Positions 56,961-62,902 of a stretch of DNA of 63,060 nt are shown here, in pieces (within the stretch, counting starts at the first letter, position 1; the number at the start of each line of letters is the position of its first letter). The stretch comes from Lentisphaeria bacterium (GTDB lineage: Bacteria > Verrucomicrobiota > Lentisphaeria > Victivallales > UBA1829), in NCBI GenBank assembly GCA_017503545.1, contig JAFVSW010000037.1, positions 1-63,060 on the forward strand, in the 5' to 3' direction. Position numbers and translations under genes: made by a program. Under the pieces are notes generated by a model, which searched no databases, was not told where the DNA came from, and worked only from the letters and a program-made list of their open reading frames with translations.

Positions 56961-56986
56961 ACATCCATCCTGCAATAAACACAAGA

Positions 56987-57028
56987 ATCCCGGATCACAC
57001 CGTAAAATGTGATCCGGGATCTTTTTTT
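56987..57028 (+). terminator. gnd terminator
   Basis: ATCCCGGATCACA (56987-56999) pairs with TGTGATCCGGGAT (57008-57020), followed by seven T residues to 57028. The stem also lies just beyond the end of convergent groEL. Confidence 0.92.
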
Positions 57029-57052: not shown

Positions 57053-58696
<1,644 letters not shown>

Positions 58697-58743: not shown

Positions 58744-59040
58744 TTAGCCGACGATCGCAAGAATGTCGCTGGAATTGAGAATTTTGTATTCTTCATCATC
58801 CAGTTTCACTTCTGTTCCGCCGTATTTGCTGGTGAGAACGATATCGCCGACTTTGACATCAAAACCGGAACGGGAACCGTCATCATTGAGTTTACCAGTA
58901 CCGAGAGCGATCACTTTCGCCTGCTGGGGTTTTTCTTTTGCAGCATCGGGAATCACGATTCCGCCGCGGATCTGTTCTTTTTCTTCAATTGCCTGAACGA
59001 GAACTCTGTCGCCCAGCGGTTGAACTTTCGGATTAGCCAT
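58744..59040 (-). CDS. groES: Co-chaperonin GroES
   Basis: 98 residues with the N-terminal [11 protein letters not shown], the mobile-loop region ([20 protein letters not shown]) and the C-terminal [21 protein letters not shown]. It caps GroEL. It lies 52 nt after dnaK and 47 nt before groEL in the same direction. No CIRCE element (TTAGCACTC-N9-GAGTGCTAA) lies before it, so it is likely transcribed from the dnaK promoter. Confidence 0.98.
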
Positions 59041-59092: not shown

Positions 59093-60997
59093 TTATTTGT
59101 CGTCGTTGACAACTTCTGCATCGATCACATCGTCATCGCCGCCCTTCGGAGCATCTGCACCCGGAGCTGCGCCACCCTGCTGCTGTGCTGCCTGCTGGGC
59201 TTTATAAACTTCCTGACCGATCGCCATGAGTTTTTCTTCCAGATCTTTCATCGTGGCTTTCATGGCTTCTGTGTCGTCACGTTCGATGTCTTTCTTCAAT
59301 TGTTCGATACCGGCGGTAACAGGTGCCTTCAGACTTTCGGGAACTTTGTCGCCCAGTTCGTTCAACTGTTTTTCGGTCTGATAGACCATATTGTCTGCAC
59401 GGTTCTTGACTTCGATTTTTTCTTTCGCAAGTTTATCTTCTGCTTCATGGGCTTTCGCATCATCAACCATGCGCTGGATATCCTGTTCAGAAAGACCGCC
59501 GTTCGCTGTGATCGTGATCTTCTGTTCCTTGCCGGTTCCTTTGTCTTTTGCAGTGACAGAGAGAATACCGTTTGCGTCAATATCGAATGTCACTTCGATC
59601 TGCGGAATACCGCGGGGAGCCGGAGCAATACCGTCAAGACGGAATCTGCCGATGGTCTTGTTGTCCGCTGCCATATTGCGTTCCCCCTGAAGAACGTGAA
59701 TGTCTACAGACGGCTGATTATCCGCTGCGGTAGAGAAGATTTCACTCTTCTGTGTCGGGATTGTTGTATTCCGTTCGATCAAGCGGGTTGTTACGCCGCC
59801 CAGAGTTTCAATACCGAGAGAGAGAGGTGTAACGTCAAGCAGAACAACATCATTCAAACCTGCATTACCGCTCAACACACCACCCTGGATCGCAGCACCG
59901 GCTGCAACCACTTCGTCCGGGTTGACACCTTTGTTCGGTTCTTTGCCGAAGATGCTCTTGGCTGTATCCTGAACCTGAGGCATACGGGTCATACCGCCAA
60001 CCAGAATGACTTCATTCAGTTGAGAAGCACTCAAACCGGAGTCCTTCAAGCAAGCCATACAGGGAGGACGGCTGCGTTCCAACAGCGGGTCAGCCAACTG
60101 AACCAGCTGAGAACGTGTCAATGTGGTCTGCAAGTGTACCGGACCACTCTGATTCATGGTGATGAACGGAAGGTTGATTTCTGTACTCATGCTGGAAGAA
60201 AGTTCGATTTTGGCTTTTTCTGCCGCTTCTTTCAAACGCTGCAATGCCTGTGCATCTTTACGCAAATCAACACCGTTTTCTTTCTGGAAATCGTCAGCGA
60301 TCCAGTCCATAATGACTTTATCAAAGTCGTCACCACCCAGGTGAGTATCGCCGTTTGTTGCTTTCACTTCAAACACGCCGCCGCCGAATTCGAGAATGGA
60401 GATATCGAATGTACCGCCACCCAAGTCGTAAACGGCAATTGTTTCATCATTGCTCTTATCCATACCGTATGCAAGGGCTGCAGCAGTCGGTTCGTTGATG
60501 ATACGTTTGACATCGAGACCGGCAATACGGCCGGCATCTTTCGTTGCCTGACGCTGTGTATCATTGAAGTATGCGGGAACCGTAATAACTGCTTCTGTAA
60601 TCTTTTCACCCAGGAATGCTTCTGCATCCGCTTTGAGTTTCTGCAGAATCATTGCACTGATTTCCTGCGGAGAATACAGTTTGTCATTGATTTTGACTGC
60701 AACGTCACCATTGGGGGCTTTTGCCACTTCATAAGGAACGCGGGAGATTTCTTCGCCCACTTCATCATAACGACGTCCCATGAAACGTTTGACAGAGAAA
60801 ATTGTGTTCTTCGGGTTGGTCACAGCCTGACGTTTTGCAGTCTGACCGACAAGACGTTCCCCGTTCTTTGTAAATGCAACGATAGACGGAGTGGTGTTTG
60901 CACCTTCCGCATTGGGGATGATTTTAAATGTAGAACCATCCATCACAGCCATACAACTGTTGGTTGTACCCAGGTCAATACCAAGAATTTTACCCAT
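59093..60997 (-). CDS. dnaK: Chaperone DnaK
   Basis: 634 residues. The N-terminal [47 protein letters not shown] and the substrate-binding domain are all present. The C-terminus has a Q/G/A-rich linker and acidic end ([16 protein letters not shown]). grpE and dnaJ are absent nearby; groES and groEL follow instead, an uncommon arrangement. The promoter upstream is of sigma-54 type (61051-61067). AAAGGA precedes the ATG. Confidence 0.99.
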
Positions 60998-61050: not shown

Positions 61051-61067
61051 AGCAAATACCATGCCAA
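61051..61067 (-). promoter_or_regulatory. Sigma-54-type promoter of dnaK-groES-groEL
   Basis: Minus strand TTGGCATGGTATTTGCT has GG and GC separated by exactly 10 nt and fits the -24/-12 consensus TTGGCACG-N4-TTGCT at all but one position. Transcription would start near 61040, giving a leader of about 43 nt before dnaK. No convincing sigma-70 promoter was seen between it and the gene. Confidence 0.75.
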
Positions 61068-61126
61068 CTTTTACACATTATAATTTATATCAATCAAATT
61101 CAATGACTTGTTTTATTTTTAACGCC

Positions 61127-61189
61127 TGTCTCATAACGTGACATCGAATGTTTTTCCGCGTGTCACAGTGGGCAAAGTGACATTTTGTC
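61127..61189. promoter_or_regulatory. Candidate enhancer-binding-protein sites upstream of dnaK
   Basis: TGTCAC (61161-61166)-N10-GTGACA (61177-61182) is a perfect 6-bp inverted repeat. Further half-sites are TGTC (61127-61130)-N9-GACA (61140-61143) and TGTC (61186-61189). The distance to the -24 box is about 60-120 nt, the usual place for activators of sigma-54. Confidence 0.55.
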
Positions 61190-61231
61190 TCATTTTGCCC
61201 CATTCCCGGCAAGCTCTGCGCCATGGAATGC

Positions 61232-61291: not shown

Positions 61292-61519
61292 TTATTTCTT
61301 TTTGCAGCACTTTTTCGCAGGTTTGCCTTCTTTGCAGTTCAGTTTGTCAAAAGTAGCTTTGGAAACAAAGATGGTCAGACGGGTACCGTCATCATCAACC
61401 GCTTTGACACCATAGCGAATCTGTACGCCTTTGGATGTTTCGCGGGGATACTGGATCTTTTCGCATTTTGCATCAGCGATTTCGACATGTGCTTTTTTCT
61501 TGACGTTGTAGAACTTCAT
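61292..61519 (-). CDS. Small basic protein of unknown function
   Basis: 75 residues, starting MKFYNVKKKAHVEIADAKC and ending in a Cys/Lys-rich tail (PAKKCCKKK). No family was recognised with certainty. It has a good GGAG ribosome site 8 nt before the ATG and its own terminator, so it is a real gene. The body is strand-rich. The cysteines (19, 62, 71, 72) could bind a metal, but their spacing does not fit a common zinc finger. Confidence 0.75.
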   Translation of the reverse strand: MKFYNVKKKAHVEIADAKCEKIQYPRETSKGVQIRYGVKAVDDDGTRLTIFVSKATFDKLNCKEGKPAKKCCKKK

Positions 61520-61798: not shown

Positions 61799-62902
61799 AT
61801 GAAAAATGTGGATTTGCTCGGATTCGGGTTCATGCGCTTACCCGTTTCAGGTCCGGAACGGACTGTCAATATCGCTCAAACCTGTGAATTGGTCGATCAT
61901 TATCTCGATAACGGTTTCCGCTGGTTTGATACCGCAAAACCTTATCACGGTGGTGATTCCGAAGTTTACTTGAAACAATGTGTCGTTGACCGTCATGACC
62001 GGGACAAGATCCGTATTGCAGATAAACTGACACAATGGTTCCTCAAAGACGGAATAACGCCGGAACAATTCTTTCAGGAACAATTGGAACGTACCGGAGC
62101 CGGATATTTTGACCGCTATCTCCTTCACGCGCAAGATAAACAGAAAGCAAAAGAAGGCGAAGAAAATGGACTTTGGGATTTTCTTCTGTCTTTGAAACAG
62201 CGCGGTCTTGCCCGGGAAATCGGTTTTTCTTTCCATGATACTGCGGATGTACTGGATCAAATCCTGACCAATCATCCGGAAATGGATTTTGTACAGCTTC
62301 AATTGAATTATATTGACTGGGATAATGTTTCCATCCAATCCCGTCTTTGCTACGAAATCGCGCGGAAACATAATAAACCGATCATTGTCATGGAACCGGT
62401 AAAAGGCGGTATGCTCAGTTCTCTTTCCGGGGAAGCATTGAAAATATTGGATGCACCGGAACGCTCTGCGGCATCCTGGGCGATCCGTTACGTGGCATCT
62501 CTGCCGGGAGTTGTCACAGTCCTCAGCGGCATGTCTGATATGGCTCAGCTCAACGACAATATGGAAACGATCAAGAATTTTGAGCCGCTGAACGAAAATG
62601 AACTGAAACGGATTGCAAAAGTATGTGATCTGTTGAACAGTATCCCACTTGTTCCCTGCACCCGCTGCAATTATTGTGTGGAAAAATGCCCGATGGAATT
62701 ACCGATTCCCAATCTGCTCGGAGTTCTGAACAGTTACCGTCAATTCGGCATATCCGAAGGTGTAAACAGTTCTTACCGTTGGTACAGCCGGAATCACAAA
62801 CCTTCGGAATGTATCAAATGCGGTCTTTGCGCCAAAGAATGTCCGCAGCACTTATCAATTCCCGATCTGATGCAGGAACTCTCGGAAGCAAAACTGGGCT
62901 GA
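61799..62902 (+). CDS. Aldo/keto reductase with C-terminal ferredoxin domain
   Basis: 367 residues. The N-terminal aldo/keto reductase barrel (about 1-280) has LLGFGFMRLPV and FDTAKPYHGGDSE with the active-site Tyr, plus LNYIDWDN. The C-terminal part holds two Cys motifs CTRCNYCVEKCP near 287 and CIKCGLCAKECP near 340 for [4Fe-4S] clusters. This is the common ferredoxin-linked subfamily of anaerobes, whose substrates are mostly unknown. AAAGGA precedes the ATG. The right repeat arm begins 18 nt after the stop. Confidence 0.9.
   Translation: MKNVDLLGFGFMRLPVSGPERTVNIAQTCELVDHYLDNGFRWFDTAKPYHGGDSEVYLKQCVVDRHDRDKIRIADKLTQWFLKDGITPEQFFQEQLERTGAGYFDRYLLHAQDKQKAKEGEENGLWDFLLSLKQRGLAREIGFSFHDTADVLDQILTNHPEMDFVQLQLNYIDWDNVSIQSRLCYEIARKHNKPIIVMEPVKGGMLSSLSGEALKILDAPERSAASWAIRYVASLPGVVTVLSGMSDMAQLNDNMETIKNFEPLNENELKRIAKVCDLLNSIPLVPCTRCNYCVEKCPMELPIPNLLGVLNSYRQFGISEGVNSSYRWYSRNHKPSECIKCGLCAKECPQHLSIPDLMQELSEAKLG

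Follow-up and report, generated by a model that had tools for sequence, protein, structure and literature searches.

We analyzed a window of 63,060 nucleotides (the whole stretch of DNA under study, contig JAFVSW010000037.1) from the genome of a Lentisphaeria bacterium (G000, approximately 96% complete with 5.6% contamination). The window harbors the chaperone genes dnaK, groES, and groEL, all on the minus strand, together with the upstream elements listed in Table 1. The hairpin found behind groEL is the probable end of a dnaK-groES-groEL operon, and terminator-like matches in this region were about as numerous as in its shuffled versions. On the other side, upstream of dnaK, lies an open reading frame (ORF) of 75 amino acids rich in lysine and cysteine (61292 to 61519, minus strand) that gave no Pfam match, and an aldo/keto reductase gene with a C-terminal 4Fe-4S dicluster domain (61799 to 62902, plus strand) diverges from the chaperone operon. 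Comparison of the dnaK region with a plasmid collection returned no match.

Table 1. Genes and sequence elements of the dnaK-groES-groEL locus (window coordinates)
Feature	Position	Strand	Remarks
terminator-like hairpin	56986..57021	minus	16 pairs, immediately 3' of groEL; consensus match only
groEL	57053..58696	minus	547 aa; NCBIfam GroEL TIGR02348, 850.8 bits (cut-off 582.1)
groES	58744..59040	minus	98 aa
dnaK	59093..60997	minus	634 aa; NCBIfam DnaK TIGR02350, 981.6 bits (cut-off 822.55)
predicted transcription start	61040	minus	12 nt past the C of the -12 GC; inferred from element geometry, unmapped
sigma-54 -24/-12 promoter, TTGGCATGGTATTTGCT	61051..61067	minus	GG-N10-GC; class common to the dnaK regions of the order
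weaker paired half-sites, TGTCACgttaTGAGACA	61127..61143	minus	
extra half-site, TGTGACA	61161..61167	minus	forms TGTCAC-N10-GTGACA with 61177-61182
putative enhancer (UAS), 17-bp palindrome TGAGACAaaaTGTCACT, TGAGACA-AAA-TGTCACT	61176..61192	minus	family motif TGTGNCA-N3-TGNCACA

In bacteria, the core chaperones are classically controlled by sigma-32 or HrcA, and sigma-54 is known above all for its role in nitrogen control. The preliminary description of this DNA had nevertheless placed a -24/-12 element with GG-N10-GC spacing 54 nucleotides before dnaK. We found both the element and its spacing to be correct, while the distance to the dnaK ATG at 60997 has to be amended to 53 bases. Scored against the sigma-54 consensus YTGGCACGN4TTGCW, the element agrees at 12 of 13 informative positions, and it is the only match to YTGGCAYN5TTGCW in the entire window. 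Since shuffled sequences contained on average 0.16 such matches, the match alone is suggestive rather than proof. Indeed, a match of this kind turned up in 14 of 100 shuffles, so that a single one within 63 kb is no great rarity, and the element and the accompanying repeats could in principle be due to chance and have been kept only through shared ancestry of the intergenic region.

Conservation weighs heavily against this explanation. As relatives we took the order Victivallales (Lentisphaeria), represented by 100 genomes, in 90 of which DnaK was detected. Leaving out G015, G031, and G035 (contig end) as well as G058 (weak partial frames), and adding a second copy from G046, gave 87 dnaK regions. 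A GG-N10-GC site scoring at least 10/13 was present within 250 nt in 86 of these 87 regions, compared with 2.7% of dinucleotide shuffles, on the strength of which we rejected a chance origin of the dnaK promoter; 33 of the 87 sites reached the full score of 13. Among the 87 best sites, TGGCA and TGC were invariant, while the 4-bp spacer contained just 0.04 to 0.30 bits. The scan itself imposed GG and GC but left T2, C5, A6, and T14 free. That the element stays invariant while its spacer and flanks vary speaks against mere shared ancestry, and the same element recurs independently at clpB, hsp20, and htpG (see below). Furthermore, only 2 of 33 dnaK regions of a Bacteroidota comparison set scored 10 or more. 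We therefore give hardly any credence to a fortuitous match.

The promoter was also found beyond the order. Sixty-one genomes from other families of the phylum provided 60 dnaK upstream regions (G124, without match, and G158, at a contig end, were lost; a second copy in G152 was added; and a second, weak copy in G108 was left out). Forty-eight of them scored at least 10, compared with 3.4% of shuffles, and the other 12 had no site of that score. In families f12, f17, and f18 of this set, the -12 GC lies just 11 to 16 nt before the dnaK ATG (L371, L373, L376, L383, L389, L390, L392, L399, L401, L403, and L404), so that the dnaK mRNA is predicted to have no leader or almost none. In genus g51 of family f15, a much sampled genus with genomes of approximately 3 Mb, dnaK sigma-54 scores of 12 to 13 were accompanied by operator-like palindromes (L391 and L393 to L398, from G115, G156, G117, G119, G121, G142, and G113, respectively).

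Upstream of the promoter, a perfect TGTCAC-N10-GTGACA inverted repeat had been described and proposed as the site of an enhancer-binding protein. The repeat does exist (61161 to 61182) and did not occur once in 100 shuffles. Its interpretation, however, had to be changed: the spacing conserved in the relatives is N3, and the unit common to relatives and co-regulated genes is the 17-bp palindrome, the 5' edge of which lies 125 bp upstream of the 5' edge of the promoter. We thus rejected TGTCAC-N10-GTGACA as a functional unit. The N3 motif, TGTGNCA-N3-TGNCACA, scored at least 10/12 in 82 of the 87 dnaK regions of the order, compared with approximately 1.2% of shuffled regions, and stayed below 10 in the remaining 5. 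Hence both the promoter and the upstream element are conserved in related genomes, a point on which the preliminary description had wanted its proposal to be checked. In addition, the operator-promoter distances cluster with a period of about 11 bp: for 43 genus-distinct distances among sites scoring at least 11, the best period was 11.25 (R = 0.65), and the 19 distances for a score of 12 gave an R of 0.64 at 11.0. Such clustering would place operator and promoter on the same helix face, roughly in phase. This evidence is merely suggestive, because the species share ancestry and a scan served to select the period.

A sigma-54 promoter requires rpoN, and absence of this gene from the genome had been named as an observation that would refute the proposal. 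This was not the case: a 488-codon ORF of the same genome (G000:C81) matched PF00309 over the cut-off. The usual regulators, by contrast, were missing. Just as had been noted before, no CIRCE was present anywhere in the window, even with up to 3 mismatches allowed, and the best CIRCE match in the 87 dnaK regions of the order reached only 12/18. HrcA (PF01628) was detected in none of the 100 order genomes. Likewise, none of these 100 genomes had a match over the cut-off to the proteobacterial RpoH model TIGR02392, the best one scoring 169.5 bits versus the required 323.1. Some sub-cut-off matches of the sigma-70 family in relatives are located in frames of approximately 280 to 350 codons; we take them to be other sigma-70-family proteins, but a divergent heat-shock sigma factor is not fully excluded. 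On the basis of these counts, control of the chaperones by HrcA/CIRCE and by RpoH was rejected. The genomes are mostly draft metagenome-assembled genomes, so these absences, like the counts of single activators given below, may reflect assembly gaps and are approximate. Overall, the presence of rpoN, the conserved elements, and the lack of CIRCE, HrcA, and RpoH over cut-off support, at the sequence level, the sigma-54 route initially suggested for these chaperones.

The sigma-54 promoter could still be real yet auxiliary, with an overlooked sigma-70-class promoter or another sigma factor providing basal and heat expression. We consider this unlikely, although it remains the objection that we take most seriously. 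groEL is normally essential, and a strictly activator-dependent promoter would therefore need standing activation, which is surprising and counts against exclusive sigma-54 control. The sub-cut-off sigma-70-family matches in relatives point in the same direction, and so does Chlamydia, for which the accessible part of PMC8762339 reports tandem sigma66-sigma54 promoters at hrcA-grpE-dnaK and the accessible part of PMC7482065 includes hrcA and grpE in its sigma-54 regulon table. However, the minus strand from 61067 to dnaK contained a single sigma-70-type match (9/12, 61014 to 60987), and this match overlaps the dnaK start. Moreover, HrcA and CIRCE are absent, and the elements that are conserved are of the sigma-54 type. 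That the -24/-12 element is the main promoter of the operon nevertheless remains an inference.

The two elements are not restricted to dnaK. In the window's own genome, TTGGCAYN6TGCT gave 7 matches, versus 2 for the reversed control. Three of the 7 were inside ORFs, and the other 4 precede dnaK-groESL, clpB, an hsp20 pair, and fmdB-like-htpG. An independent search of this genome for the operator (GHGACAN3TGWCDC) returned 7 distinct places, 5 of them in the same four promoters and 2 inside ORFs. Promoter and operator thus occur together only before these four loci. The names clpB, hsp20, fmdB-like (for an FmdB-like zinc ribbon), and htpG were taken from the translations, without a family search. 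The sharing of cis-elements by several chaperone loci is one of the features expected of a heat-shock regulon, and sigma-54 control is accordingly predicted to reach beyond dnaK to clpB, hsp20, and htpG.

In the relatives, clpB was analyzed in 61 genomes, 10 of which had no match at the threshold; G031, where the gene lies near a contig end, was left out of the other 51, giving 50 upstream regions. The promoter scored at least 10 in 47 of them (all except those of G006, G045, and G051) and the operator in 39. When five other genomes were searched with the strict pattern, each of them yielded dnaK; G014 also yielded clpB and htpG, and G009 clpB, and dnaK was the only intergenic site recovered in G069. 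G045 and G085, which harbor 5 to 7 activators, have further -24/-12 sites (L251, L256, L257, L266, and L267); the genes behind these sites, identified by eye, include PII-like, glutamate-synthase-like, and glutamine-synthetase-like ones.

Two proteins of the window's own genome, at G000:C101 and G000:C59, are strong matches to the sigma-54 activator domain PF00158. The C101 regulator combines a receiver (PF00072), the AAA+ activator domain, and a Fis-type helix-turn-helix (HTH; PF02954), all over cut-off, and contains the GAFTGA motif; its nearest solved chain is 4l4u, of the NtrC family. Directly upstream lies the gene of a soluble kinase with PAS, HisKA, and HATPase domains. The best-scoring models for the pair were AtoS/AtoC, under cut-off, and the regulator remained below the NCBIfam equivalog cut-offs of both AtoC (491.3 versus 714 bits) and NtrC (423.4 versus 558.6 bits). 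Most C101 orthologs keep the GAFTGA loop, with GAFTNA in three regulators of family f4 (G067, G069, and G083). The C59 protein (L090/L277, G000:C59:4500-9000) has a GAF-AAA+-Fis architecture in which unrelated residues replace the GAFTGA loop; it probably cannot serve as a sigma-54 activator and may regulate in some other way. Lacking GAFTGA, it was rejected as the driver of the chaperones.

A single strong PF00158 protein was found in 15 of the 100 order genomes, and for 14 of them, all except G031, this protein is the C101 ortholog (53 to 70% identity). Four of the genomes providing this evidence (G042, G067, G069, and G082) are 94 to 96% complete. In G093, the dnaK promoter was present and no activator was found. 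The upstream stretch of the kinase-regulator operon was present in 9 loci, the other 20 either lacking the kinase or ending inside it. Eight of these 9 genomes carried the operator, without a -24/-12 element, upstream of the operon, compared with 0.8% of shuffles; the regulator operon without operator is that of G042. An operator without promoter at this place is a typical autoregulation pattern and links the operator to the C101 regulator, which thus probably controls its own operon, positively or negatively. No kinase adjoins the regulator in the fetched loci of G022, G025, and 10 genomes of family f4 (G060, G064, G067, G069, G074, G075, G082, G083, G086, and G090).

It is quite improbable, in our opinion, that another enhancer-binding protein is the activator, be it the GAF-AAA-Fis protein of C59 or one absent from the assembly. 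The own genome does contain two strong PF00158 proteins, other genomes contain up to 13, and G031 carries only the non-C101 kind. Nevertheless, the missing GAFTGA loop of the C59 protein, the 14 genomes that have the C101 ortholog as sole activator, and the operator in front of the C101-type operon all point to the C101 regulator.

The signal is less well defined, since signal specificity cannot be read from a sequence. A soluble PAS kinase, belonging to a pair that resembles AtoS/AtoC best, could also respond to nitrogen or carbon status, redox, or envelope stress, and the sigma-54 regulon would then answer something other than heat. We regard such a non-heat signal as rather unlikely: all shared sites of the own genome are at chaperone loci (Hsp70, Hsp60/10, ClpB, Hsp20, and Hsp90), and nitrogen-type genes with sites were seen in only two of the five relatives, G045 and G085, both of which are richer in activators.

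We thus consider it very probable that the PAS kinase and the NtrC-type regulator drive a sigma-54 heat-shock regulon comprising dnaK-groESL, clpB, hsp20, and htpG, with regulator binding, start sites, and heat induction being inferred. According to this model, heat or damaged protein would be sensed by the soluble PAS kinase, either directly or via chaperone titration, and the kinase would phosphorylate the C101 regulator. The phosphorylated regulator would then bind TGTGNCA-N3-TGNCACA upstream of the chaperone loci, contact sigma-54 polymerase, and drive open-complex formation with ATP, allowing transcription of dnaK-groES-groEL from the -24/-12 element. Phosphorylation and the heat or misfolded-protein signal are, like binding, inferred steps. 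clpB, hsp20, and htpG would be under the same regulator, which would make sigma-54 the heat-shock (proteotoxic-stress) sigma factor of these bacteria.

In a wider reading, sigma-54 would be the main heat-shock sigma factor of Verrucomicrobiota sensu lato (Victivallales together with other Lentisphaeria and the majority of sampled families), acting with one dedicated, self-regulated PAS kinase-NtrC pair via a TGTGNCA-N3-TGNCACA enhancer, and rpoN and the regulator would be essential for growth, because the only recognizable dnaK-groESL promoter is activator dependent. The evidence leaves us evenly balanced on this extension. If the proposal is true, an activator-gated switch replaces the usual sigma-32 or HrcA logic, and the control of Hsp70, Hsp60, Hsp90, ClpB, and Hsp20 has been rebuilt on this ATP-dependent mechanism. 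Direct predictions are the essentiality of rpoN, a defined operator, and a kinase sensing protein damage.

Single chaperone genes with sigma-54 promoters have precedents: E. coli ibpB has one, and groESL3 of Bradyrhizobium is under NifA/sigma-54 control. These cases are similar in this respect, but they are auxiliary or paralogue specific, exist beside sigma-32 or CIRCE, and do not amount to a whole regulon. The HsfB/HsfA pair of Myxococcus xanthus and its action on lonD were reportedly described by Ueki and Inouye in 2002. According to the accessible portion of PMC9109919, the pair is NtrC-like and has lonD as a target, and it resembles our model in that a kinase phosphorylates an NtrC-like regulator and a heat-shock gene is activated. 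As far as that portion goes, however, the pair acts on a single heat-shock gene and on genes of secondary metabolism instead of core chaperones, and HsfB is a hybrid kinase.

A 2025 survey (PMC12316311, accessible in part) predicted sigma-54 promoters by position-specific scoring matrix (PSSM) for groEL, groES, ibpA, grpE, dnaJ, and dnaK in Planctomycetota and Bacteroidota. Unlike in the Victivallales, no operator or activator is given for this chaperone cluster in the available text, which does not contain the string "Lentisphaer" and does not name Verrucomicrobiota for the cluster; its reference no. 80, cited in support of sigma-54 dependence, deals with nitrogen recycling in Blattabacterium. 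In Rhodopirellula baltica, heat induces chaperones and rpoN is unregulated under heat, as stated in the accessible part of PMC2754498. In the literature covered, from which subscription papers are largely missing, we came across no sigma-54 heat-shock regulon described for Lentisphaeria or Verrucomicrobiota.

Chlamydia, also of the PVC superphylum, offers a further comparison. In C. trachomatis, the accessible parts of PMC7482065 and PMC8762339 describe a CtcB/CtcC (AtoS/AtoC)-sigma-54 pair in which CtcC has no DNA-binding domain. Judging from these parts, the likeness is that one AtoS/AtoC-like pair activates sigma-54, that its targets include a chaperone operon, and that expression of most sigma-54 targets increases upon heat shock. 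Chlamydia nevertheless keeps HrcA/CIRCE and a sigma66 promoter, and many of its targets are, in the same partial sources, late developmental genes. In contrast, Victivallales lack detectable HrcA, their regulator has a Fis-type HTH, the operator is conserved, and the regulon of the window's own genome consists of chaperones. If true, the arrangement proposed here might also explain how the unusual sigma-54 promoter of the Chlamydia hrcA-grpE operon arose.
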